Origin: Arthrobacter sp. SLBN-112
GTDB taxonomy: Bacteria; Actinomycetota; Actinomycetes; Actinomycetales; Micrococcaceae
Direction of reading: 5' to 3'
DNA: 64,000 nucleotides
Assembly: GCF_006715225.1 (NCBI RefSeq)
Contig: NZ_VFMU01000001.1
Span: forward strand, 1 to 64,000
In this document: positions 11,343-21,867 of the stretch, one piece after another
How positions within the stretch are numbered: the stretch's first letter is position 1
How the letters are laid out: each line of letters opens with the position of its first letter
Program-made: the position numbers and the translations under genes
The notes under the pieces: model-generated
The model's database searches: none
Told to the model about the DNA's origin: nothing
Seen by the model: the letters and a program-made list of their open reading frames with translations, nothing else

Positions 11343-11364
11343 GCAGTAACGGCGCAGTAACGCG
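11343..11364 (+). promoter_or_regulatory. SARP/BTAD-type tandem direct repeat, site A
   Basis: Two copies of GCAGTAACG start 11 bp apart (11343 and 11354), upstream of a TATAT -10-like element near 11379-11383 and of the gene at 11413. Direct repeats with 11-bp periodicity over the -35 region are the classical target of SARP activators. The same repeat occurs at 19107-19128 and 21797-21818. Confidence 0.65.
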
Positions 11365-11412
11365 CGTCTGATCGACTCTATATGTGGTTCCCCCGCGTGT
11401 GAGGCCGGTGTG

Positions 11413-11796
11413 ATGAGTCAGCCCTGGAGTTCGGTCCGGGTAGCGGGCCTGGCCCTGGACGTCCCGGCCCAGCTCGTCCCCTCGGACGAGGCCGGATTCG
11501 AAGGCAGCGCTGCCGTCCTCGAAGGTGCCGACATGCGCCTCACCGTGGATGCCAGCCCCTTCGCCGACCCCCTCACACGCTATGAAGCCAAGCCCGGGTT
11601 CGAATACTGGCAGGAAGCGGTGGGCAGCATCACCGCGGACTTCGTCCTGTTCGAAGAGGAGGGCACCCGCACCGTCGCCGTCACCATCCCCGGCCGCGCC
11701 ACCGCCGTGGTCCATCAACCCGCCGACGCCGACAAGGACGTCGCCCTGCAGATCCTGCGAAGCATCCGAACAGATCAAGGAGAGTCCAATGACTGA
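11413..11796 (+). CDS. small hypothetical protein, first gene of the hydrolase operon
   Basis: A 127-residue acidic soluble protein without signal peptide or membrane helix. Its content (VAGLALDVPAQLVPSDEA, then FEYWQEAVGSITADFVLFEE and ALQILRSIR) resembles the short alpha/beta fold of DUF1795/PsbP-like proteins, but the match is weak and no function is claimed. ATG 11413 is preferred over the adjacent GTG 11410. Its end overlaps the metalloprotease gene by 8 bases, so the two are translationally coupled. It lies directly downstream of repeat site A and is probably activated by the BTAD protein encoded at 19146-19946. Confidence 0.6.
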   Translation: MSQPWSSVRVAGLALDVPAQLVPSDEAGFEGSAAVLEGADMRLTVDASPFADPLTRYEAKPGFEYWQEAVGSITADFVLFEEEGTRTVAVTIPGRATAVVHQPADADKDVALQILRSIRTDQGESND

Positions 11797-13858
11797 AGAG
11801 CCCTACCCCGCGGCCCCGTTCCTGGCCGCCATTCAAAACACCGGCCCGGGCGAGAGCAATCCGGGCTTCAGCAAGGTGCAAAACTACCTCGAGCGCTTCG
11901 GATACCTGGGGGCCTCCACCGCCAGGGACATCGGCGTCCTGGACGATTCCACCGCCGGTGCCCTGAGAAGCTTCCAGGAGTTCTTCAACCTCCCGGTCAC
12001 CGGCGTGTTCGACGACGCCACCCGGGAAGCGATGATGCGGCCGCGCTGCGGGCTCCCGGACAAGCGCGGCGGTGACCTTGACTTCGCCACGGCGTGCGCG
12101 TGGGTGGACCGGACTTTGACGTTTGCGTTCGATACAGGGACGGATGACGTTGCCGGTACTGCCGAGTTCGACGCGATCAGGCGTGCCATCGATACCTGGC
12201 GGGGGCTGGGCGGACTGTCCTTCACCGAGGTCGCCGTCGGCTCCAGCCCGGACATCCGCATCGGCTGGCGGCCCGCGGCTGACCCGGACCACTCGATGGT
12301 GGGCGGCATCCTGGCCCACGCGGATTTCCCGCCCGGCTGCAGCGTCATCACCAACACCCTCCCCAAGCCGGTCCACTTCGATGACAGCGAACACGTCTGG
12401 AGCGTCGGCGCCGTGGCGAACGCCTTCGACATCGAGACCGTCGCCCTGCACGAACTCGGGCACATTGTGGGGCTGGCGCACTCCAGCGTTGCCGGCTCGG
12501 TGATGGCGCCCACGGTGTCCTCCAACTTCACCAAACGCGTCCTCACCCAGGACGACCTTGACGGGTTCCGGGCCCTGTACCCTGCCGCGCCCCAGGCTTG
12601 GGCGGGGTGGAACTCCCTGGGCGGCGTGATCACCTCGGACGTGGCCGTGGGCAACAACAAGGACGGCCGGCTGGAAGCGTTTGCCCGGGGCACCGATGGT
12701 GCGGTGTGGCACCGGTGGCAGACCACGCCCAACGGCAACTGGTCCGGCTGGAACTCCCTGGGCGGGGTCATCACCACCGAGATCGCGGTGGCGAACAACC
12801 AGGACGGCCGGCTGGAAATCTTCGCCCGGGGCACGGACAACGCGCTGTGGCACCGGTGGCAGACCACGCCCAACGGCAACTGGGCCGGCTGGAACTCCCT
12901 CGGCGGCGGAATCACCGGACCCGCCGCCGTGGGGCGCAACGCTGACGGCCGGCTCGAAGTCTTCGCCCGGGGCAACGACGGTGCCGTATGGCACAGGTGG
13001 CAGACGGCGCCCAACGGCAACTGGTCCGGCTGGGCCTCCCTGGGCGGCGTGATCACCTCCGAAATTGCGGTGGGCAGGAACGCGGACGGCCGCCTTGAGA
13101 TCTTCGCCCGGGGCACCGACAACGCCCTCTGGCACAAGTGGCAGACAGCACCAAACGGCAACTGGTCCGGCTGGGCCTCCCTGGGCGGCATCCTCACCTC
13201 CAACATCACCACCGGGACCAACGCCGACGGCCGCCTCGAAGTCTTCGTCCGGGGCACGGACAACGCCCTCTGGCACAAGTGGCAGACGGCACCCAACGGC
13301 AACTGGTCCGGCTGGGCCTCCCTGGGCGGCATCCTCACCTCGGATATCGCCGAGGGCAGGAACTCGAGCGGCCGGATGGAGGTCTTTGTCCGGGGCACGG
13401 ACAACGCCCTCTGGCATCTGTGGCAGACTGCGCCCAACAGCGGCTGGTCCGGCTGGGCCTCCCTGGGCGGCATCCTCACCTCCAACATCACCGTGGGAAG
13501 CAACGCCGACGGCCGGCTCGAGGTCTTTGTCCGGGGCACGGACAACGCCCTCTGGCACAGGTGGCAAAACAGCCCGTTCCTGAGCGAAGAGTCCACCGGA
13601 GCTGCCGCCACCATGGCCGAAGAGGAGGGCGGGGACGGGGCCGCCGCAGCCGTGGTCCCGCAGACAGTGGAGATGCCCACCGGCACCATGGCCGAGAGCC
13701 TGACAACAAACGGCCACAAGCGGCCGGCAGCAGCGGAAATGCCTGCCGGGTCAATGGAGGAACCTCCGGCCAGGGAGTCAGCGGGAGATTCCGGCGCGCC
13801 TGGCAAGGAACGCGCATCGGACGCGATGCCGGACGGGAGCATGCCTGCCAGCGCCTGA
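11789..13858 (+). CDS. matrixin-like zinc metalloprotease with seven-repeat propeller
   Basis: A 689-residue enzyme built like a vertebrate matrix metalloproteinase followed by a lectin-type propeller. Residues 24-82 form a peptidoglycan-binding-like helical domain. PRCGLPD (85-91) is a textbook cysteine switch, with Cys87 expected to cap the zinc and keep the enzyme latent. The catalytic domain has HELGHIVGLAH (His221, Glu222, His225, His231) and a Met-turn at Met239. Residues 271-599 are seven 47-residue repeats of PLL/AAL-like type, predicting a seven-bladed carbohydrate-binding propeller. The tail (600-689) is Ala/Glu-rich. No signal peptide is visible. AAGGAG precedes ATG 11789. It is the second gene after repeat site A. 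Confidence 0.85.
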   Translation: MTEEPYPAAPFLAAIQNTGPGESNPGFSKVQNYLERFGYLGASTARDIGVLDDSTAGALRSFQEFFNLPVTGVFDDATREAMMRPRCGLPDKRGGDLDFATACAWVDRTLTFAFDTGTDDVAGTAEFDAIRRAIDTWRGLGGLSFTEVAVGSSPDIRIGWRPAADPDHSMVGGILAHADFPPGCSVITNTLPKPVHFDDSEHVWSVGAVANAFDIETVALHELGHIVGLAHSSVAGSVMAPTVSSNFTKRVLTQDDLDGFRALYPAAPQAWAGWNSLGGVITSDVAVGNNKDGRLEAFARGTDGAVWHRWQTTPNGNWSGWNSLGGVITTEIAVANNQDGRLEIFARGTDNALWHRWQTTPNGNWAGWNSLGGGITGPAAVGRNADGRLEVFARGNDGAVWHRWQTAPNGNWSGWASLGGVITSEIAVGRNADGRLEIFARGTDNALWHKWQTAPNGNWSGWASLGGILTSNITTGTNADGRLEVFVRGTDNALWHKWQTAPNGNWSGWASLGGILTSDIAEGRNSSGRMEVFVRGTDNALWHLWQTAPNSGWSGWASLGGILTSNITVGSNADGRLEVFVRGTDNALWHRWQNSPFLSEESTGAAATMAEEEGGDGAAAAVVPQTVEMPTGTMAESLTTNGHKRPAAAEMPAGSMEEPPARESAGDSGAPGKERASDAMPDGSMPASA
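12599..13585 (+). repeat. seven tandem 141-bp repeats encoding propeller blades
   Basis: Seven in-phase units of exactly 47 codons, each opening W-[AS]-G-W-[NA]-SLGG and containing DGR[LM]E-[VIA]-F-[AV]-RG then LWH or VWH. Units 4-7 are the most alike, suggesting recent blade duplication. Confidence 0.9.
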
Positions 13859-13878
13859 TGCGCGTGGCAGGAACTGCA

Positions 13879-13913
13879 ACGTACGACGGCGGGGCTGGGC
13901 CGCCGTCGTACGT
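13879..13913. repeat. dispersed TACGACGGCGG-type hairpin, copy 2
   Basis: A perfect 14-bp inverted repeat (ACGTACGACGGCGG and its complement) around a 7-base loop, 20 bases after the metalloprotease stop. It could reduce readthrough into the downstream protease-nuclease gene. Confidence 0.7.
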
Positions 13914-13986
13914 CACCCCGGACACACCCGAGGCCGCCCGCAGCGGCCGGGCAGTAAAAGCACCACACCCAGGAAATGGACTTGGT

Positions 13987-15846
13987 ATGAACACCACCGA
14001 CCGCCCCGTCCCGGAGGCAACGTCCGACAACGAACAGATGCTGGCCTCGCTGCGGCAGTTCATCAGGACCAAGGGCGCCGCCTACCTCGAGGACCCGAAC
14101 ATCACCTCGATCGGTGTGGGCCACAAAGTGGTGGACGGGAAGGCGACCGGCGAGATCTCGCTCCAGTTCACCGTGGGCGAGAAAGCGTCCCCGGAAGCCC
14201 TGGAGTCCCTCAACACCAAACCCATACCGGACACCATCATGGTGGACGGGGTTCCGGTTCCCACCGATGTTATCGAGCGGGATTACCGCCCTTCGTTCCG
14301 GGCAGTGGCGGAGGTGGAGCCCCCACCCACCAAGGTCCGGCTCGACCCCATCAGGCCGGGTGTCAGTGTGGGCAACATCCACTCCAGCGCCGGCACCATC
14401 GCCTGCATCGTGTACGACCGCCACGACGGAACGCCGCTGGTCCTCAGCAACTGGCACGTGCTGCACGGTGATACCGGCGCCCTTGGCGACTTGGTGGTCC
14501 AGCCGGGCCCGCATGACGACAACCGGGTCAACGCCAACGGGCTGGGCCGCCTGGTCCGCTCGCACCTGGGCGTCGCGGGTGACTGCGCCGTGGCAACCAT
14601 CGCGGACCGCGGCTTCACCACGGCCATCCAGTCCCTGGACGTCACGCCGGACCAGCTCGGGGAACCTGAGATCGGCGACAAAGTGGTCAAGAGCGGCCGC
14701 ACCACAGGCGTCACCCACGGGGTGGTGCGCCGCGTGGACGTGATCGCCAAACTTTCTTACGGCTCCGCGGGTATGCATACCATCGGCGGCTTCGAAATCG
14801 GCCCCGACCCTGCCAACCCCTCGGTGGACGGGGAAATCAGCCGTGGCGGGGACTCGGGGTCGGCATGGATTTTCAAGACCCCCTCCGGTGAGCTCACCAC
14901 CGTCCTGGCGGGGCTGCACTTCGGCGGGGAGTCAGGAGACAGCCCTGACGAGCACGCCCTGGCCTGCCTGCCCCAGTCCGTATTCGAAAAGCTGGAAATC
15001 ACCCTGCGCCCGCCGGCGGCTCCCGAGGCGGACGAGGTTGTTCCCGAAGGGTTCCTGAATGACTTCCTCGGCCAGCCCGTCGGCCTGCCCACCCTTGCTG
15101 CGGCCATCAACTCCGACGCGGTGCGCTTCGCCGGCTCGGACATCATCCTGTACACCCACTTCTCGCTCTGCCTCAGCACGTCACGGCGGTTTGCCCGCTG
15201 GGTGGCATGGAATATCGACGGCGGCAGCCTGCAAAAACTCAGCCGGACGGGCATCAGCTTCATCAAGGACCCCCGGCTCCCCGCCGGTATCCAGGTCGGG
15301 GACGAGCTATACCGGGGCAACCGGGTGGACCGCGGCCATCTGGCACGCAGGGCCGACCTGGTGTGGGGAGCGGCGGACGAGGCCGGCCGGGCGAACAAGG
15401 ACTCGTTCTACTTCACCAACATCACCCCACAGTTGGAGGACTTCAACCAGAGCAGCAAGAACGGGGTCTGGGGGCGGCTTGAGGATGCGGTGTTCGAGGA
15501 CGTGGAGGTTGACGACCTGAAGGTCAGCGTGTTCGGCGGGCCGGTGCTGCAGGACGATGACCGCGTCTACCGGGGGACTCCCCTGCCGCGCGAGTACTGG
15601 AAGATCGTCGCGTTCGTGGAGCACGGGCAGCTCAAGAGCAGGGCCTTCCTGCTGACCCAGAACCTGGACCAGCCCGAAGCGCTCGAGCTCGACGAATTCC
15701 GCGTGTTCCAGGTTGCCGTCAGCGAAATCGAGGAGCGGACAAGCCTGCAGTTCCCGGACGCGCTGCGGCAGGCTGACACCTTCGCCGTCCCCGAGGCGGT
15801 TGGCGACAGGCGGCCGCTGGACGATACGTCGGACATCCAGTGGTAG
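13987..15846 (+). CDS. trypsin-like serine protease fused to a DNA/RNA non-specific endonuclease
   Basis: A 619-residue fusion. Residues 1-110 carry a chymotrypsin-associated N-terminal module (NITSIGVGHKVVDGK, then VPVPTDVIERDYRP). Residues 125-335 are a trypsin-like protease with SNWHVLHG (His157), GDCAVA (Asp199) and GGDSGSAW (Ser290). Residues 365-600 are a NUC1-type nuclease with DRGHLARRAD (catalytic His451) and the metal-binding FTNITPQLEDFNQ (Asn478, Asn487). All visible catalytic residues of both domains are kept. There is no signal peptide. It follows the metalloprotease gene after a hairpin, with only a single imperfect half-site (GGCAGTAA) of its own, so expression probably depends at least partly on site A. 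The frame is open far upstream; ATG 13987 is the first start beyond the hairpin. Confidence 0.85.
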   Translation: MNTTDRPVPEATSDNEQMLASLRQFIRTKGAAYLEDPNITSIGVGHKVVDGKATGEISLQFTVGEKASPEALESLNTKPIPDTIMVDGVPVPTDVIERDYRPSFRAVAEVEPPPTKVRLDPIRPGVSVGNIHSSAGTIACIVYDRHDGTPLVLSNWHVLHGDTGALGDLVVQPGPHDDNRVNANGLGRLVRSHLGVAGDCAVATIADRGFTTAIQSLDVTPDQLGEPEIGDKVVKSGRTTGVTHGVVRRVDVIAKLSYGSAGMHTIGGFEIGPDPANPSVDGEISRGGDSGSAWIFKTPSGELTTVLAGLHFGGESGDSPDEHALACLPQSVFEKLEITLRPPAAPEADEVVPEGFLNDFLGQPVGLPTLAAAINSDAVRFAGSDIILYTHFSLCLSTSRRFARWVAWNIDGGSLQKLSRTGISFIKDPRLPAGIQVGDELYRGNRVDRGHLARRADLVWGAADEAGRANKDSFYFTNITPQLEDFNQSSKNGVWGRLEDAVFEDVEVDDLKVSVFGGPVLQDDDRVYRGTPLPREYWKIVAFVEHGQLKSRAFLLTQNLDQPEALELDEFRVFQVAVSEIEERTSLQFPDALRQADTFAVPEAVGDRRPLDDTSDIQW

Positions 15847-15850
15847 GTGC

Positions 15851-16081
15851 CTACTGGATGTCTTCGTCCGGGGGCGGCAGCCGGTAGCCCAGTTCCTCGT
15901 CCACGGACTGCACGCCGCTCACGGACTTAAGGGCCGGCAGGCTGTCATTCGGGGCGGAGCCGGTGATGAAGCCCATCTCCAGGACCTGTTCCACCTGCAT
16001 GCCGCGGGCGCGCAGGGCGTCCGCGACATCGGCGATGGCGGACAGGTACTCCTGGTCCACCGTGACATTGATGTTGACCAT
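15851..16081 (-). CDS. free-standing I9-like (subtilisin propeptide/inhibitor) protein
   Basis: A 76-residue protein whose pattern follows the inhibitor I9/subtilisin-propeptide fold: strand VNINVTVD, helix LSAIADVADALRARGMQ, strand VEQVLEMGFITGSAP, helix NDSLPALKSVSGV and strand QSVDEELGYRLPPPDEDIQ. Close relatives are sometimes labelled ketohydroxyglutarate aldolase, which is unlikely for this size. It starts 53 bases after the subtilase gene on the same strand, so it probably works in trans as an inhibitor or folding aid for that enzyme, like POIA1 or yeast inhibitor IB2. Function is inferred from fold pattern and position. It converges on the protease-nuclease gene with only four bases between stops. 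Confidence 0.7.
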   Translation of the reverse strand: MVNINVTVDQEYLSAIADVADALRARGMQVEQVLEMGFITGSAPNDSLPALKSVSGVQSVDEELGYRLPPPDEDIQ

Positions 16082-16134
16082 TCCTCAGGTTATCCCTCAT
16101 CGCGTAGCAGGCGGTTCCTAAGTAGCAGGCGGTC

Positions 16135-17460
16135 CTACACCGGGGCGATGACCAGGCCGGAGCCAACGTCCAGGGAGGGTGCAATGAGCCGGTCGCATTC
16201 CTGGACCAGCGAGGACCAGAGTTCCCGTCCGCGGAAGCCGGTGGCCTGGGCCCAGAGGGCGGCAACGCCGGCGGCGTGCGGGGTGGCCATGCTGGTGCCG
16301 CTGATGCTCCGGTACCGGGTGGGCATGGGCCAGGACGAGTAGACCTGCCAGCCGGGGCCGGCCACGTCCACCTGTCCGCCCCGGACCGGCAGGCTGCGCG
16401 CGGAGAAGAAGGCAACGTCCAGCTGATGGTCCAGGGCGCCCACCGCCATGATGAACGGGCTGTTGGCCGGGGTACCCACGAATCCGAAGTTGCCCTGGAG
16501 GCGGCGCGCGTTGTTTCCGGCGGCGGCGATGATCAGCGTGCCGGCGTCCAGCGCACGCTTGCCGGCTGCCACGTACGGCGGGTGGATCTGCGGCACGTCG
16601 GCTCCGAGGGACATGGAGATGATGTGGCAGCCGCTGGACAACGCCCAGTCAATGCCGGCCAGGATGCCGGCGTCGCTGCCGGAACCTGAGTTGCCCAGCA
16701 CCTTGCCCGCGAAGATGTCGGCCTCGTAGGCCACGCCGTAGCGCGGCCCGGTGGACGGGGACTTGGAGCCGCAGGAGGTGCCGATGCAGTGTGTGCCGTG
16801 CCCGTGTCCGTCCTCGGGGGTCTCGCCCTGAATGAAGGACCGGGTGATGATGTTGCGTCCGGCGAAGTCAGGGTGGGTTGAGTCGAAACCCGTGTCCAGG
16901 ACTGCCACCTTGACCCCGCGCCCCGAGTATTGGGACGACTGTGCCTGGACGGCCTGCAGCCCCCACGTGAACTGGGCGGTGTCCTGGAAGATCGGCACGG
17001 TTGGTGGTGCCGCTACTCCCGTGCCCTGGCCGTTGCCGTTCAGGCGCGTGTCCAGGTCCAGGACAGCATCGCGGTAACCCCTGACGTACTCAGTGGGTCC
17101 CGCCGGGAGGACATGGTGGATCAGTTCCGGCGATACGGACAGTACCGCACCCGCCACCGCTTCGGTGGTCTGCAGCGCGCCGATCTGCTCCGGCGCCGCC
17201 GAAACCACGGCGATGCCCAGGGAGCTGAAGTACGTGGCGTCCGCACCGCTGCTTTCCGAGACATCCACTTCACGGTCCCGGAAGTCCCGCGAGTCCGCCA
17301 CGTTGGACAGGCCTGCCGATTCCAGCACCGAGGACGGGCTGTCCGCGTCACGGGCAAAGACCACGATGAACCGGCCGGTGGTCTCGGCCCCAGAGTAGTC
17401 CGCCTCCGGGACGGACCCGGACGAGTTCTCGGACGTGGGGAAGGAATTCGGGTCGATCAT
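16135..17460 (-). CDS. S8 family subtilisin-like serine protease
   Basis: A 441-residue subtilase with the full catalytic set: Asp189 in VAVLDTGFD, His221 in GHGTHCIG, oxyanion Asn316 in AAAGNN and Ser390 in GTSMATPHAAG. The first 120 residues include a segment (FIVVFARDADSPSS to AVLSVSPE) that looks like a built-in propeptide domain, but no N-terminal hydrophobic signal sequence is visible, unusual for this family. AAAGGAG lies upstream of ATG 17460. It is the second gene of a minus-strand operon, 42 bases after the alpha/beta hydrolase and 53 bases before the I9-like protein, and therefore under repeat site B. Confidence 0.9.
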   Translation of the reverse strand: MIDPNSFPTSENSSGSVPEADYSGAETTGRFIVVFARDADSPSSVLESAGLSNVADSRDFRDREVDVSESSGADATYFSSLGIAVVSAAPEQIGALQTTEAVAGAVLSVSPELIHHVLPAGPTEYVRGYRDAVLDLDTRLNGNGQGTGVAAPPTVPIFQDTAQFTWGLQAVQAQSSQYSGRGVKVAVLDTGFDSTHPDFAGRNIITRSFIQGETPEDGHGHGTHCIGTSCGSKSPSTGPRYGVAYEADIFAGKVLGNSGSGSDAGILAGIDWALSSGCHIISMSLGADVPQIHPPYVAAGKRALDAGTLIIAAAGNNARRLQGNFGFVGTPANSPFIMAVGALDHQLDVAFFSARSLPVRGGQVDVAGPGWQVYSSWPMPTRYRSISGTSMATPHAAGVAALWAQATGFRGRELWSSLVQECDRLIAPSLDVGSGLVIAPV

Positions 17461-17502
17461 TTCGGATCTCCTTTGCAGTGGGTTGAAGGGTGGTGCGTGG
17501 TC

Positions 17503-19086
17503 TCAGAGGGCCAGCGTCCTGGGGGTAACGGTCAGGCGCAGGCCCGCGTTGTGTCCGAGTAGATGCCTGGACACCTCGGGAACAGGGATGAATCCCTGCC
17601 AGCGGTTCGGCGTCGGGTCGGTGTCCTTCAGCAGGTCTTCATCCCCCGCTTCCCAGTTGCGCAGGGCGCTGGGGATCGTGCTGTTCCACGCTGCCCAGGC
17701 TTTGGGCAGGGGCCGCTCCGCGGAGGGCGGTTCAATTTCCACCAGCAGCGTGTCCTGCCAGTCCTCGGTCTGTTCCAAGTGGTCGGCGAAAAAGAAGTGC
17801 CCGTCCTTTTCCAGGATCGACATCAGCGTCAGCTTGAGGGCCTGGCGCAGCCGGGGCACTACCTTCCCATCAACGCGCGGCCGTGGAGCCCTGGAGGAGA
17901 GGAACGTGGTCAGCAGCGGAACCGGCGAGTCGATGGGATCTCCTTCCTTCCAGTGCTCGATCTGCACTGGGCAGAAGTGGGCCGCGCTTTGTTCATGCAC
18001 TAGAACCGGCAGCCCCCGGATGGCCAGGCCCACGTCCAGCTGGAACTCCACCTCCGGCGGATCGGACTTGCCCACTGTGAAGCCCACGAGTTCCACCTCG
18101 ACTTTGAGGTCCCCGAACAGGAAGCGCTGCAGGTTCTGGTAGCCCTCTTCGGAATTGACGATGCCGTAGCGTCCGCTGTGGCTGCGGTGCACCACTGCCA
18201 CCACCGCGCCTTTGACCGCAGCGTTGTCGATCTGGACCAGCCCGTCGCTCCGGGCGCCCACCGCTTTTGAGGACAGGCCCAGGGCGACGTCGTAGTCCTC
18301 GGGGTTGGAGCCCACCAGGCAGAACAGTTCGTTCAAGGGAAACCCGTCATCTGGCATCTCGGTGGCCCGGAAGTTTTCGCGCGTCCGGATCGCCCTGAGG
18401 GCCGGTGGCGTGAGGTATTCGTACATCCGGTCGGGCCCGAAGATATCCGCCCCCTGGAACCGGGTGGCGTCCCGGAGCCTCTCGAACAGGCCGTACCCGA
18501 CAGCGAATTTGATGCCGCCGTGCGGAGTGGCATACGTGAAGAGGCGGGCAACATATTTGGCCCCCGCGGCAGGGTCGATCACGCCGCCGTCGCCAGCCAG
18601 GCTTTCCGGGATGACCCGCTGCAGCAGTGAGCGGCAGATGAGCCCGCCCATGGAGTGCGCCACCAGGAAGACCTTCGGCGCTCCGGTCTTCTCGAGCACA
18701 AGGTTGATCAGGCTGAACAGGTCCCGTGCTGCTTCCTCGAACGAGAAGCTCTCAGGGTCCGCATCGAAGGTATCCGCCGCGTCGTCGTAGAAGCGGTGGA
18801 TCCAGATCGATGCCGGGTTCACGGAGTTGGCGTCAACGCTGTTGAGGAATGACCACTGGTCCCCGTGGACCGGCACCTCGTACTGGTGGTCTGCCACCAG
18901 GCGCAGCATCGGGGACTCGAACTGGTGGAATTTCGCCCGTCCGCTGCCGTCAGCACGGACATGGACAGAACCCTGGCTGAAGCCATAGAAGGGATCGTCA
19001 ACAGCGCTGTTGACGGCGGCGCCGGTGCCAGCGAAACCGCGGACGTAGATCACCGGGAGCCGGCCGTCGTGAAGGGCAATTCCCAT
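17503..19086 (-). CDS. alpha/beta hydrolase (lipase/esterase-like) of the hydrolase island
   Basis: A 527-residue protein with an alpha/beta hydrolase core in the first 340 residues. The nucleophile elbow is VAHSMGGL (Ser145); the start LPVIYVRGFAG gives the oxyanion region, and HRSHSGRYGIVNSEEGYQNL supplies the likely catalytic His near residue 305. The C-terminal 190 residues are beta-rich (VEVELVGFTVGKSDPPEVEF) and unidentified. No signal peptide is seen. ATG 19086 has no clear ribosome-binding site, so the message may be nearly leaderless. Repeat site B lies only 21-42 bases upstream, placing it at the promoter. It heads the operon with the subtilase and I9-like gene. Confidence 0.75.
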   Translation of the reverse strand: MGIALHDGRLPVIYVRGFAGTGAAVNSAVDDPFYGFSQGSVHVRADGSGRAKFHQFESPMLRLVADHQYEVPVHGDQWSFLNSVDANSVNPASIWIHRFYDDAADTFDADPESFSFEEAARDLFSLINLVLEKTGAPKVFLVAHSMGGLICRSLLQRVIPESLAGDGGVIDPAAGAKYVARLFTYATPHGGIKFAVGYGLFERLRDATRFQGADIFGPDRMYEYLTPPALRAIRTRENFRATEMPDDGFPLNELFCLVGSNPEDYDVALGLSSKAVGARSDGLVQIDNAAVKGAVVAVVHRSHSGRYGIVNSEEGYQNLQRFLFGDLKVEVELVGFTVGKSDPPEVEFQLDVGLAIRGLPVLVHEQSAAHFCPVQIEHWKEGDPIDSPVPLLTTFLSSRAPRPRVDGKVVPRLRQALKLTLMSILEKDGHFFFADHLEQTEDWQDTLLVEIEPPSAERPLPKAWAAWNSTIPSALRNWEAGDEDLLKDTDPTPNRWQGFIPVPEVSRHLLGHNAGLRLTVTPRTLAL

Positions 19087-19106
19087 AGGGAGAGTGCACC
19101 ACGGGT

Positions 19107-19128
19107 GCCGTTACGGCCGCGTTACTGC
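19107..19128 (-). promoter_or_regulatory. SARP/BTAD-type tandem direct repeat, site B
   Basis: Read on the minus strand, GCAGTAACG and GCCGTAACG start 11 bp apart. The site fills the 60-bp gap between the BTAD gene and the alpha/beta hydrolase gene, facing the hydrolase. Confidence 0.65.
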
Positions 19129-19145
19129 CTACAGGGGACCGAACG

Positions 19146-19946
19146 CTACAGGGGGCCGAACGCCGGCCGGGCGCCCAGCAGGGAACCGGCGGCTGTGACA
19201 ATGCGGTCGGCGACCGGATGATCTGCCGCCGTCTGCCGGTCAATCAATTCGGCCACGAGGCCCGTGAGGGAGGCGGAAGGCTGCAGGCCCATGTCCGTCC
19301 GCAACTGCTCCCGGTACCGCTCGTAGGCGCGAAGCGCTGCCCCCGGATTTCCACGCTGGAGTTCGCCTTCGATGAGGAACGAAACGGCGCCTTCGAACAG
19401 CGGCTCGATTTCCAGGGTGGCGCGTGCAGCCTCCGTCGCTGTTTCGGGGTCTCCGGCGGCAAGGGACTTCCGTGCGACCAGGGCGAGGGCCTGGAGGCGG
19501 TCTTCCGTCAGACGGTTCTGGGCGAAAACCACCCAGTCCTCGTACCAGCCGGGGAGGAGTTCCGCGTCGCGCAGTTCATGCAGCAAAGAGGCGGCGCTTC
19601 CGGTATGCCGGTCACCCCGCAAAGCCTGGATCTGGGACCGGATCCGCTGCACATCGACGTCAACCCGCTCGTCAAGCGACAACGTTGGTCCCCCATTGAC
19701 GATCAGCCCGGGCACCTCGCGGGAAATCAGGTGGACGCTGACGCGCAGGCTTTCCAGTGCCCTGGCGTCCGGGTACTCCGGCCACAACAGGCCGCTGAGA
19801 TGGGCCCGCAGGCTCGGTCCACGGATGGCCAGGGATGCAATGAGCCGCTGCTGTCGTGTCGCAACGTGGATAGCCACATCGTCCCGGCGGAGCCGCCAGG
19901 ACCGAAGTAAGTCCAGTTTTAGTTCCCCATTATCGACCGTGCCCAT
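19146..19946 (-). CDS. SARP-like transcriptional activator with BTAD domain
   Basis: A 266-residue regulator. Residues 1-105 match a SARP-type winged helix (RQQRLIASLAIRG, then AHLSGLLWPEYPDARALESLRVSVHLI and a hairpin LIVNGGPTLSLDERVDVDV); residues 110-255 are the all-helical bacterial transcriptional activator domain, ending in AALRAYERYREQLRTDMGLQPS. Such two-domain SARPs activate promoters bearing heptameric direct repeats with 11-bp spacing, and just such repeats occur at three promoters within 8 kb. It therefore probably switches on the hydrolase operons. A palindrome-like GAGAGCACGCTCTC (20049-20062) lies upstream of its own start. No repeat of the GTAACG type precedes it, so autoregulation through that motif is unlikely. 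Confidence 0.85.
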   Translation of the reverse strand: MGTVDNGELKLDLLRSWRLRRDDVAIHVATRQQRLIASLAIRGPSLRAHLSGLLWPEYPDARALESLRVSVHLISREVPGLIVNGGPTLSLDERVDVDVQRIRSQIQALRGDRHTGSAASLLHELRDAELLPGWYEDWVVFAQNRLTEDRLQALALVARKSLAAGDPETATEAARATLEIEPLFEGAVSFLIEGELQRGNPGAALRAYERYREQLRTDMGLQPSASLTGLVAELIDRQTAADHPVADRIVTAAGSLLGARPAFGPL

Positions 19947-20099
19947 CGAAACCTGATTTCCGATTTGTCAAAAAGATGGAGGAGGTATGAATGAGCATCC
20001 ACAGTACGAACGATGCTGTCAATAAGGTATTTCCACTTTTCCAAAGGAGAGAGCACGCTCTCCTATAGCGGTATAAAAAGTGTCATAGGGGGACGGGGA

Positions 20100-20768
20100 T
20101 TACTTCAATGTTGGTAGCAGGTGCTTGAGGGGGTCGCCAACAGCAGGTCCGGTAGGGGGTTTGAGGGTTGACGACGTCGGAGGTGGCGGCGTCTCCGTCC
20201 CCGAACTTCCCGACGGGGAGGGCGAGGGTGACGTCGTCGATGTCGACGTCGACGGCGGGGGCTCCGGCGTCGAACTTGTGGTCGGTGCCAGGGTTTTGTC
20301 GGGGGCGACGCCGGCAGCCATCCCCAGCGGGACTGAAATGCCCTTTTTGGGGGATGCCTTTTCGGCGTTTGGCGCGGCGACGGACACTTCCAGGTTTGCC
20401 TGCCGCACTTTGGTGGTGGTCCATTCCCCGCGGACAAGGCAGGTTTCGCCAGGCTTCAGGATGCCGGTGCAGCCGTTGAAGATGACGAGGAATGCGGTGT
20501 TGTTGATGCCGGCGTCGGGCACGGTCACATCGGAATCAGTGCCGTTGGTGATTTCAATCGACTCGACCGTGCCGGCTTCCGCGAGCGGGCCTGTCTGTCC
20601 AGGCTGGACGATCCAGTTCTCCTCGCCGATCCGCACCCGGTTCTCAACCACCGGTTGGGAGTCTTTGGTCCTGGCACTCTCAGTGCCTCCCGGGGTCCCT
20701 GTGCAGGATGACAGGACGCCCAGTCCAAGAAGGCAGGCAATGCATTTTCCTGCTGCTGGATATCCCAT
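20100..20768 (-). CDS. lipoprotein of unknown function
   Basis: A 222-residue exported protein with an N-terminal hydrophobic stretch and a lipobox LGVLSSC. The folded part (about residues 40-140) is beta-rich, with SIEITNGTDSDVTVP and a Cys pair in FNGCTGILKPGETCLVRGEW, reminiscent of an Ig-like domain. From about residue 155 it is a Pro/Ser/Thr-rich linker, probably spanning the wall. It begins 2 bases after the stop of the membrane protein, so the pair form an operon under repeat site C. I do not recognise a family. Confidence 0.7.
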   Translation of the reverse strand: MGYPAAGKCIACLLGLGVLSSCTGTPGGTESARTKDSQPVVENRVRIGEENWIVQPGQTGPLAEAGTVESIEITNGTDSDVTVPDAGINNTAFLVIFNGCTGILKPGETCLVRGEWTTTKVRQANLEVSVAAPNAEKASPKKGISVPLGMAAGVAPDKTLAPTTSSTPEPPPSTSTSTTSPSPSPSGSSGTETPPPPTSSTLKPPTGPAVGDPLKHLLPTLK

Positions 20769-20770
20769 TT

Positions 20771-21751
20771 TCAGCCCCCCGGAAGAAATTCCACCCGGTA
20801 TTCCGGATTGTCGTCAAGAATGATCGCCACCCCGGTTTCGCGCCGCCAGCCTTCGGGAAGGAGAAAGAACTTGTCGGCGCTTCTGGTGACGAATTTCAGC
20901 CCTGTGTATTTGAAGTGGTATTTCGCGTCCGGATCGGGAATCCTGTCCTCGCGGACCGGGCCGGCGAGAGCCAGCGACTGGACGCTGTAGACCACCACGG
21001 AGGGGCGTTTGGCCAGTTCACGGGCATATTCCCGGGACCTGCCGGTGCCCAAAGCCCCCGCGTACAGGGAGCAGGCCCAGAACAGTGCCAGGACCACCAG
21101 CAGCACAGCGCACACGTAGCCGAGCTTTTCCCACATGGGCAGGCGCCTGAGCACGTCGCCGTCGGACGTGGCCAGCCTGCGGAGCACCCAGAAAGCGTAG
21201 GCACCGACGGCGACGCCGCTGCCCAGGGCCGCCGGTTCGAAGAGGAACGGGGTGGCGAAAGGCGGTTCCTCGAACAGGACCCACACGCCGAGCGCGGTGA
21301 TGAGGACCCCGGCGCAGAGGATGGTCCACGCGCCGAAAAGAATGTAGCTGTATAGGCCGGGCCGGCTGATGATGGCGGCCGTAAATGCGTGGACGCCGAT
21401 GCACACAAGGCTGATGAGAAGGATGGATATCGCGGGCACGATGATCGCGTCGGCGCTGCGCAGCAGATAGTCCACTGTGGAGTATTCGAGAATACTTTGG
21501 TCTATCCCGAAATAGGCGGTGCGGGTGGCCGTCATGGTCCAGCCGAACCAGAACGCCAGCGCCGTGGCCACGGTGGTCAGGGGCGCAATGATCGCGAACC
21601 ACTGAACTATCGAGTGGCTGAGGTCCGTCCCCGTGGCGGCTGCCGCAGGCCCCTTCCGACGGGCAGCGCCGGACCGGGCGGCCCGCGGCGCTTTCCATGC
21701 GCGGCTGCCCTGGGCGTCCGGCGCCCGTGCCGGAAGCCTGCCCGGGTTCAC
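20771..21751 (-). CDS. multi-pass membrane protein of unknown function
   Basis: A 326-residue integral membrane protein. After a basic, disordered start of about 45 residues there are roughly five hydrophobic helices (WFAIIAPLTTVATALAFWFGW, a second near VPAISILLISLVCIGV, then SYILFGAWTILCAGVLI, VAVGAYAFWVL and VCAVLLVVLALFWAC), then a soluble C-terminal domain of about 110 residues ending EYRVEFLPGG. GTG 21751 is preceded by GAGGAG five bases away. Repeat site C lies 46-67 bases upstream. It pairs with the lipoprotein downstream; together they could form an envelope complex linked to the hydrolases, but this is inference only. Confidence 0.7.
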   Translation of the reverse strand: MNPGRLPARAPDAQGSRAWKAPRAARSGAARRKGPAAAATGTDLSHSIVQWFAIIAPLTTVATALAFWFGWTMTATRTAYFGIDQSILEYSTVDYLLRSADAIIVPAISILLISLVCIGVHAFTAAIISRPGLYSYILFGAWTILCAGVLITALGVWVLFEEPPFATPFLFEPAALGSGVAVGAYAFWVLRRLATSDGDVLRRLPMWEKLGYVCAVLLVVLALFWACSLYAGALGTGRSREYARELAKRPSVVVYSVQSLALAGPVREDRIPDPDAKYHFKYTGLKFVTRSADKFFLLPEGWRRETGVAIILDDNPEYRVEFLPGG

Positions 21752-21796
21752 TGCTGCTCCTCGTGCCTGGTGGGCATTTCATATTTGCCCACATCG

Positions 21797-21818
21797 GCCG
21801 TTACTGCGGCGTTACTGC
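21797..21818 (-). promoter_or_regulatory. SARP/BTAD-type tandem direct repeat, site C
   Basis: On the minus strand two GCAGTAACG units start 11 bp apart, followed about 15 bases later by an AAATATG -10-like element and then the membrane protein/lipoprotein operon. Confidence 0.65.
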
Positions 21819-21826
21819 CCAGGAAG

Positions 21827-21867
21827 GAGGCGTACGACGGCGGCACGCGGCCGCCGTCGTACGCCTC
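21827..21867. repeat. dispersed TACGACGGCGG-type hairpin, copy 3
   Basis: A perfect 18-bp inverted repeat (GAGGCGTACGACGGCGGC and its complement) around a 5-base loop. It sits between the E2 gene end and repeat site C and probably insulates the two transcription units. Confidence 0.75.

Follow-up and report, generated by a model that had tools for sequence, protein, structure and literature searches.

Genes of the island

The DNA analyzed here, referred to as the window, comprises positions 1-64,000 of contig NZ_VFMU01000001.1 of Arthrobacter sp. SLBN-112 (assembly GCF_006715225.1); the genome searched is a single contig of 4.4 Mb with an estimated completeness of 100%. At positions 11,343-21,867 the window carries an island of genes, designated A to I, in which four hydrolases (B, C, E and F) are found together with a small activator (G) of the Streptomyces antibiotic regulatory protein (SARP) type and a lipoprotein/membrane protein pair (H and I). 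A short direct repeat, present before each transcription unit of the island and tied to gene G in relatives, suggests that these genes form a regulon. The genes are the following:

11413-11796, forward strand: gene A, 127 aa, overlapping the start of B; 68 relatives found; matches no family
11789-13858, forward strand: gene B, peptidoglycan-binding pro-domain, matrixin (M10, E 7.7e-28) and DUF346/PLL-type lectin propeller
13987-15846, forward strand: gene C, trypsin-like protease half fused to Endonuclease_NS (DNA/RNA non-specific endonuclease, E 1e-43)
15851-16081, reverse strand: gene D, 76 aa, conserved together with E
16135-17460, reverse strand: gene E, subtilase S8 (E 3.2e-44) with an N-terminal pro-region
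17503-19086, reverse strand: gene F, lipase-like alpha/beta hydrolase with a C-terminal beta-rich domain
19146-19946, reverse strand: gene G, 266 aa, small SARP-type activator, winged helix and BTAD (BTAD E 3.3e-14)
20100-20768, reverse strand: gene H, lipoprotein with lipobox LSSC
20771-21751, reverse strand: gene I, membrane protein with 4 transmembrane (TM) segments by hydropathy prediction

The hydrolases B, C, E and F, the BTAD gene and the membrane protein/lipoprotein pair had been named in an original prediction made from the letters of the window alone, and all of them were confirmed, the four enzymes with intact catalytic motifs. B displays both the HExxHxxGxxH motif and the Met-turn of the M10 matrixins, and its matches in the PDB are PLL lectins and pro-matrix metalloproteinases (pro-MMPs). 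The trypsin-like half of C was assigned from motifs alone; GGDSG is found in this half and DRGH within the Endonuclease_NS domain. The Asp, His and Ser motifs of the S8 subtilases are present in E, including HGTH and GTSMATP. B, C and E keep their catalytic motifs both in the window and in four orthologous copies (L032-L035), and the HSMGG motif of F is invariant in 16 of 16 aligned sequences. The structure model of F, poor at first (mean pLDDT 58), reached 83 once 61 sequences were used; it suggests a lipase-like fold for the first half of the protein and a beta-rich second half. Its matches in the PDB are lipases and are confined to the hydrolase domain (best E 6.8e-06, query TM 0.15-0.33).

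G could be aligned to the SARP chain of AfsR across residues 5-235 (E 3.5e-4), and no Pfam helix model reached E 0.1. A belongs to no known family; our guess is that this protein is perhaps a chaperone or an inhibitor of B. D had been labeled inhibitor-like. As an inhibitor of the I9/subtilisin propeptide kind it was rejected, and the label is unsupported: D matched nothing in Pfam and nothing significantly in the PDB, and a profile comparison with the pro-region of E was negative as well, although the profiles used there were shallow and therefore weak as a negative. The Pfam scan likewise gave no match of weight for the I-H pair; 35 homologues of I were found, and the named ones all belong to Arthrobacter or Pseudarthrobacter.

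Apparent absence of signal peptides

Signal peptides and TM segments were detected with a crude hydropathy test standing in for SignalP. This test flags H, the lipoprotein, and yields neither a signal peptide nor a TM segment for B, C, E and F. The 6 subtilases found in the genome served as a control: 5 carry a Sec-type signal by eye (for one of these, L238, the signal appears only when the protein is read from an in-frame start further upstream), whereas E alone does not. Regarding the start of E, 6 orthologous copies align from the same start residue. The leaderless nature of the enzymes, as originally proposed, is supported by this heuristic and by the subtilase control, no Sec or Tat signal, which would have counted against the original prediction, being detected on B, C, E and F.

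A direct-repeat operator

The operator is the direct repeat CAGTAAC-N4-CAGTAAC, with a pitch of 11 bp. It precedes 3 of the 3 transcription units (before A, F and I), each time in matching orientation. Its copies and the promoter region of G are located as follows:

11344-11361, forward strand: operator 1, CAGTAACGGCGCAGTAAC, 0 mismatches, upstream of A-B(-C)
19110-19127, reverse strand: operator 2, CAGTAACGCGGCCGTAAC, 1 mismatch, upstream of F-E-D
21800-21817, reverse strand: operator 3, CAGTAACGCCGCAGTAAC, 0 mismatches, upstream of I-H
19992-20062, reverse strand: G promoter region with a GGAGAG-N4-CTCTCC-like element, TTGACA and TGNGGATNCTCA, conserved across relatives

A scan of the window at up to 3 mismatches returned 9 operator matches; over 100 shuffles the mean was 1.7 and every count stayed below 9. 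The genome as a whole has just two perfect copies, both in the island (operators 1 and 3), and the exact pattern CNGTAAC-N4-CNGTAAC occurs at 3 sites genome-wide, all of them in the island.

According to the available part of the AfsR study (PMC10936776), the afs box is made of two 11-bp repeats centered at -29.5. From 31 aligned sites and the AfsR geometry, a candidate -10 element for F can be placed near 19098-19093, with transcription predicted to start near 19087. The AfsR-like spacing between box and start would place the beginning of the F transcript at about its start codon, and the F mRNA would therefore have no 5' leader. The -10-like signal following the box is mild (T, A and T at 16, 18 and 23 of the 31 sites, respectively). 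The putative target promoters of G appear to be of the SARP type, with two 11-bp direct repeats followed by a -10 element. The promoter of G itself has no operator repeat. When 16 upstream regions of G were aligned, the element of this promoter stood out in most of them, L041, L043 and L075 being the weak cases; TTGACA..TGNGGATNCTCA with 0 mismatches has a single match in the whole genome. This conserved element upstream of G is probably the site where the real trigger acts.

Conservation of the island and of the operator

Relatives were collected by scanning 84,980 species genomes with F, which returned 142 relatives, the best 80 of the 142 being kept. Their genes were called with our own codon-score script and no standard gene finder, and some starts or genes are wrong. 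The genes A-I, in the same order and with boxes at the same three places, were found in four other genomes (4J27, OV608, MAHUQ-56 and G359), two extra open reading frames (ORFs) being inserted between C and D in MAHUQ-56. Conservation of the neighborhood had been set beforehand as a test of the original prediction, and these four complete islands bear it out. A-F and the three boxes are also kept in NamB4 (L033).

In 12 more loci of the Arthrobacter group (L036-L044, L055, L075 and L084), G and F are kept, the box before F showing 1-2 mismatches in ten of them and 3 mismatches in L055 and L084. The gene content around this pair is variable and includes M12/M7-like peptidases with FG-GAP, M28, M36, M4, M43 and astacin-like peptidases, a lone nuclease and a lectin. 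The payload directly under the box varies as well (M12/M7-like, astacin-like, M28, nuclease, lectin), the M36 and M4 genes being located in the same islands. The operator thus precedes peptidases, nucleases and lectins that vary from strain to strain, most of them apparently leaderless.

The association between operator and activator was evaluated by comparing loci chosen by G with loci chosen by F. A site at up to 1 mismatch is present in 13 of the 20 loci chosen by G and in none of the 64 F loci without a close G (p 1e-10); the former (L147-L166) represent 19 of the 77 genomes in which G has a match, were drawn mostly from the best matches and include some strains of the loci named above. 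The 64 more distant F loci, one of which (L089) holds a distant (32%) BTAD match, contain a single box at up to 2 mismatches. Within 0.52 Mb, made up of 26 stretches selected for G and/or F, 31 sites at up to 1 mismatch were counted with the 4-bp spacer, as compared to 0 or 1 site at each of 19 other spacers, and no site was returned over 1.2 Mb of F loci lacking a close G. Permutation of the heptamer (200 permutations) gave a mean of 0.14 sites and a maximum of 8. SARP control had first been guessed from the proximity of the BTAD gene; it is now supported at the sequence level by a SARP-type repeat before all three units, a repeat that appears tied to the BTAD gene in relatives. A plasmid search performed with F returned two distant matches.

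Several further features were observed in the loci of relatives. Two large proteins (~1090 and ~1630 aa) are encoded directly after F in L041:11584-19744 and L043:11587-19772, the pair of L041 having no Pfam match. Boxes extended to three heptamers with the same 11-bp pitch, which may be stronger sites, are present at L206:18393-18421 and L200:12579-12607. In L165:11638-15079 (forward strand), near a G homologue, a DUF2278 protein with a 2-mismatch box is followed by an animal-type haem peroxidase. A short conserved ORF (~68-96 aa) on the opposite strand overlaps or abuts the end of G in L037, L039, L043, L044, L055 and L084.

Link to contractile injection systems

The first sign of an extracellular contractile injection system (eCIS) was the presence of sheath and tube genes beside a G homologue in genome G275. 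A tube-family search covering 198 genomes of the genus located the eCIS tube family in 43, the genome of the window included. The eCIS regions inspected were those of all 7 genomes with the best tube scores among these 43, together with 22 loci of other types. The box is located 92 bp before the sheath gene in G363 (0 mismatches), 64 bp before the sheath gene in G355 (1 mismatch) and 63 bp before the first operon gene in G409 (1 mismatch). The cluster of G363 comprises sheath, tube, ATPase, spike, gp25 and baseplate proteins, and G355, one of the four island genomes, unites a full A-I island and a boxed eCIS operon in one strain. Weaker boxes were found in G323 (3 mismatches) and in G275, where a 2-mismatch box lies 277 bp ahead of a LuxR-sheath unit. 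In G348 (L216:8693, reverse strand), a 1-mismatch box lies 2.4 kb upstream of the eCIS operon, with no gene called between. G323 also encodes a 970-aa eCIS_core (DUF4157) protein about 300 bp after a 2-mismatch box. Among the 22 loci of other types, in several of which the sheath start was unrecognised by the gene-calling script, none has a box at up to 1 mismatch, and boxes with 2 mismatches occur in 2. Near the eCIS loci, G281 has a SARP-like ORF (by eye; L218:7378-8250, forward strand) upstream of an eCIS of yet another type, and a tetratricopeptide repeat (TPR) protein with a weak NB-ARC match (L202:1794-4880, reverse strand) diverges from a boxed eCIS operon.

The hydrolases may be viewed as eCIS cargo, carried by the particle into target cells. 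The boxed operons of G363, G355 and G409 and the eCIS_core protein of G323 favor this possibility, as do the existence of an eCIS in the genome of the window and the location of a G homologue within 40 kb of the tube gene in 7 of the 20 genomes having both. The distribution of the genes argues against it. Twelve genomes were found to have G and a full-length F (G000, G249, G355, G358, G359, G363, G262, G336, G279, G302, G372 and G327, the tally for the last one assuming that the G search and the tube search drew the same 198 genomes). The tube gene is found in 3 of them and is absent from 9; the sheath family, for which 11 of these genomes were tested, is present in 3 and absent from 8, in agreement with the tube result. 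Over the 198 genomes, 77 have G, 43 have an eCIS and 20 have both, which shows no association (p 0.29, or p 0.70 when restricted to the stronger G matches). Grouping the eCIS by tube score gives G in 7 of 7 versus 13 of 36 (p 0.002), a result given little weight because the grouping was made after seeing the data and mixes sheath types. The eCIS of the window's own genome, at 2.99-3.01 Mb (C1), is 2.98 Mb away from the island (~1.4 Mb if the chromosome is circular) and is unboxed. The eCIS_core domain (PF13699) was not found in A-I, although this domain is not present on all eCIS cargo. Obligatory eCIS delivery is ruled out by the 9 of 12 genomes lacking the tube gene, and for the same reason the eCIS cannot be the general delivery route. 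Cargo delivery as such is considered unlikely. With respect to the "unknown secretion machine" of the original prediction, the eCIS is the obvious candidate, which nevertheless is missing from 9 of these 12 genomes.

Interpretation

The reading that we favor, with a probability of roughly one half, is a SARP regulon of weapons stored in the cytoplasm and probably freed when the producer cells lyse. The regulon part is well supported by the sequence, and the release route is one that we infer. A trigger would act on G through its separate conserved promoter element. G would then bind the CAGTAAC-N4-CAGTAAC boxes, which are present at the three promoters, and would raise the expression of A-B(-C), F-E-D and I-H together. 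Having no recognisable export signal, B, C, E and F would gather in the cytoplasm, until lysis of the producer, or of part of the population, spills them onto competitors or a shared substrate. In the strains with a boxed eCIS, injection particles would be freed alongside the enzymes by the same lysis, and the I-H pair may guard or trigger an envelope step, as a guess. The lysis step borrows from the literature, eCIS particles being described as released by lysis in the part of the survey concerned (Geller et al. 2021, PMC8213781). A weapon or a predation/lysis programme, as originally suggested, may be the role of these enzymes, and the same box at the eCIS operons of three relatives points that way. 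Considered together, the boxed hydrolase and eCIS genes point to a possible shared release programme, by cell bursting or by injection. More tentatively, a dedicated SARP family and one operator could constitute an altruistic "armed lysis" regulon of Arthrobacter relatives, in which strain-specific, rapidly exchanged leaderless hydrolases, and contractile particles in some strains, would be set free in one lysis event.

A number of observations weigh against this cytoplasmic-store reading. Genome-wide, 22 matches at up to 2 mismatches were found versus 22 for a reversed-pattern control, and the N-containing pattern at up to 1 mismatch gave 13 versus 17; as these looser matches are no commoner than the control, only the best sites are informative and the rest was treated as noise. 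Gene C lacks a good box of its own, and neither the high-scoring eCIS of G281 nor the window genome's own eCIS has a box. G was not found in the 21.6-kb stretch of L033 that keeps A-F and the three boxes, so that another SARP may serve there, and several relatives have 2-4 G homologues. Signal peptides were counted in 1 of 48 boxed genes versus 78 of 813 unboxed genes of the loci, which leans toward leaderless products, but the tally is weak, the loci being not independent and some starts miscalled. Finally, no lysis gene was recognised among A-I, genes elsewhere not having been searched for one.

Leaderless export is known in actinobacteria, and the hydrolases might leave living cells through non-classical export, whether type VII-like or of some other kind. 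E resembles the type VII mycosins (NCBIfam E 9e-31, 107 bits), at a score below the model cut-off of 279. Mycosins carry a TM segment and a signal, and E has neither. A scan of A-I, the neighboring genes not being scanned, yielded no secretion family, and the sole membrane pair is I-H, devoid of any Pfam match of weight; we regard such an export as improbable. The enzymes might also act inside the producer, in a self-digestion or abortive infection where the cell is destroyed by protease, nuclease and lipase: no signal peptides are seen, and every major component of the cell could be broken down by a nuclease, proteases and a lipase-like fold acting together, but the peptidoglycan-binding pro-domain and the PLL-type lectin propeller of B point outside, which makes this a poor candidate. 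A known defence system was rejected, since PADLOC matched nothing beyond its generic model for subtilases apart from partial hits of lower strength (IetS, E 3.5e-4; DpdF; an Aga model).

Relation to known systems

B unites the two kinds of domains known from the Photorhabdus PLL lectins and from the pro-MMP matrixins; it differs from both in being one fused bacterial protein, with no signal peptide seen and with a gene overlapping A. A contractile injection system of Streptomyces, attributed to Vladimirov in 2023, is reportedly required for cell death. That actinobacterial system is likewise tied to the death of the producer cell, but it is not known to be under the present box, and the eCIS of the window's genome is unboxed.

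The AfsR-type SARPs, in the part of the AfsR study concerned (PMC10936776), share with the G system the winged helix and BTAD as well as two 11-bp direct repeats before the -10 element. G differs in being a stand-alone SARP of 266 aa with a repeat of its own, and its putative targets are hydrolases and, in relatives, eCIS operons, with no antibiotic cluster. The available part of the eCIS survey (Geller et al. 2021, PMC8213781) places BTAD or GerE genes next to eCIS loci and treats BTAD as an eCIS "shell" domain and proposed regulator; this part mentions no operator and makes no connection to islands of leaderless hydrolases that lie at a distance from an eCIS or in genomes that lack one. BTAD as an eCIS-associated regulator domain was already known. 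In the open-licence literature, no paper was found on this operator, on its hydrolase islands or on such islands without an eCIS.

The present analysis converts a loose guess into a testable regulon, in which a short operator predicts leaderless enzymes switched together and, in some strains, an eCIS operon. It would widen the scope of the SARPs from antibiotic clusters to protein weapons and offers a handle on such systems, namely the induction of G in a laboratory strain. The operator also provides a sequence rule for finding cargo-like hydrolases overlooked by signal-peptide screens, and sharpens the question of how non-secreted hydrolases get outside in Gram-positive soil bacteria.

Other features of the window

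Two near-identical intergenic hairpins, either REP-like or terminators, are located at 13882-13911 and 21832-21861 of the window (gtacgacggcgg...ccgccgtcgtac). A pattern search for these hairpins recovered nothing, the pattern itself being probably wrong. The end of the island in the original prediction, 21867, falls in an intergenic hairpin past gene I. Further downstream, the segment 53000-64000 of the window has a G+C content of ~0.51-0.61, as compared to ~0.65 before it, and is possibly a foreign stretch.

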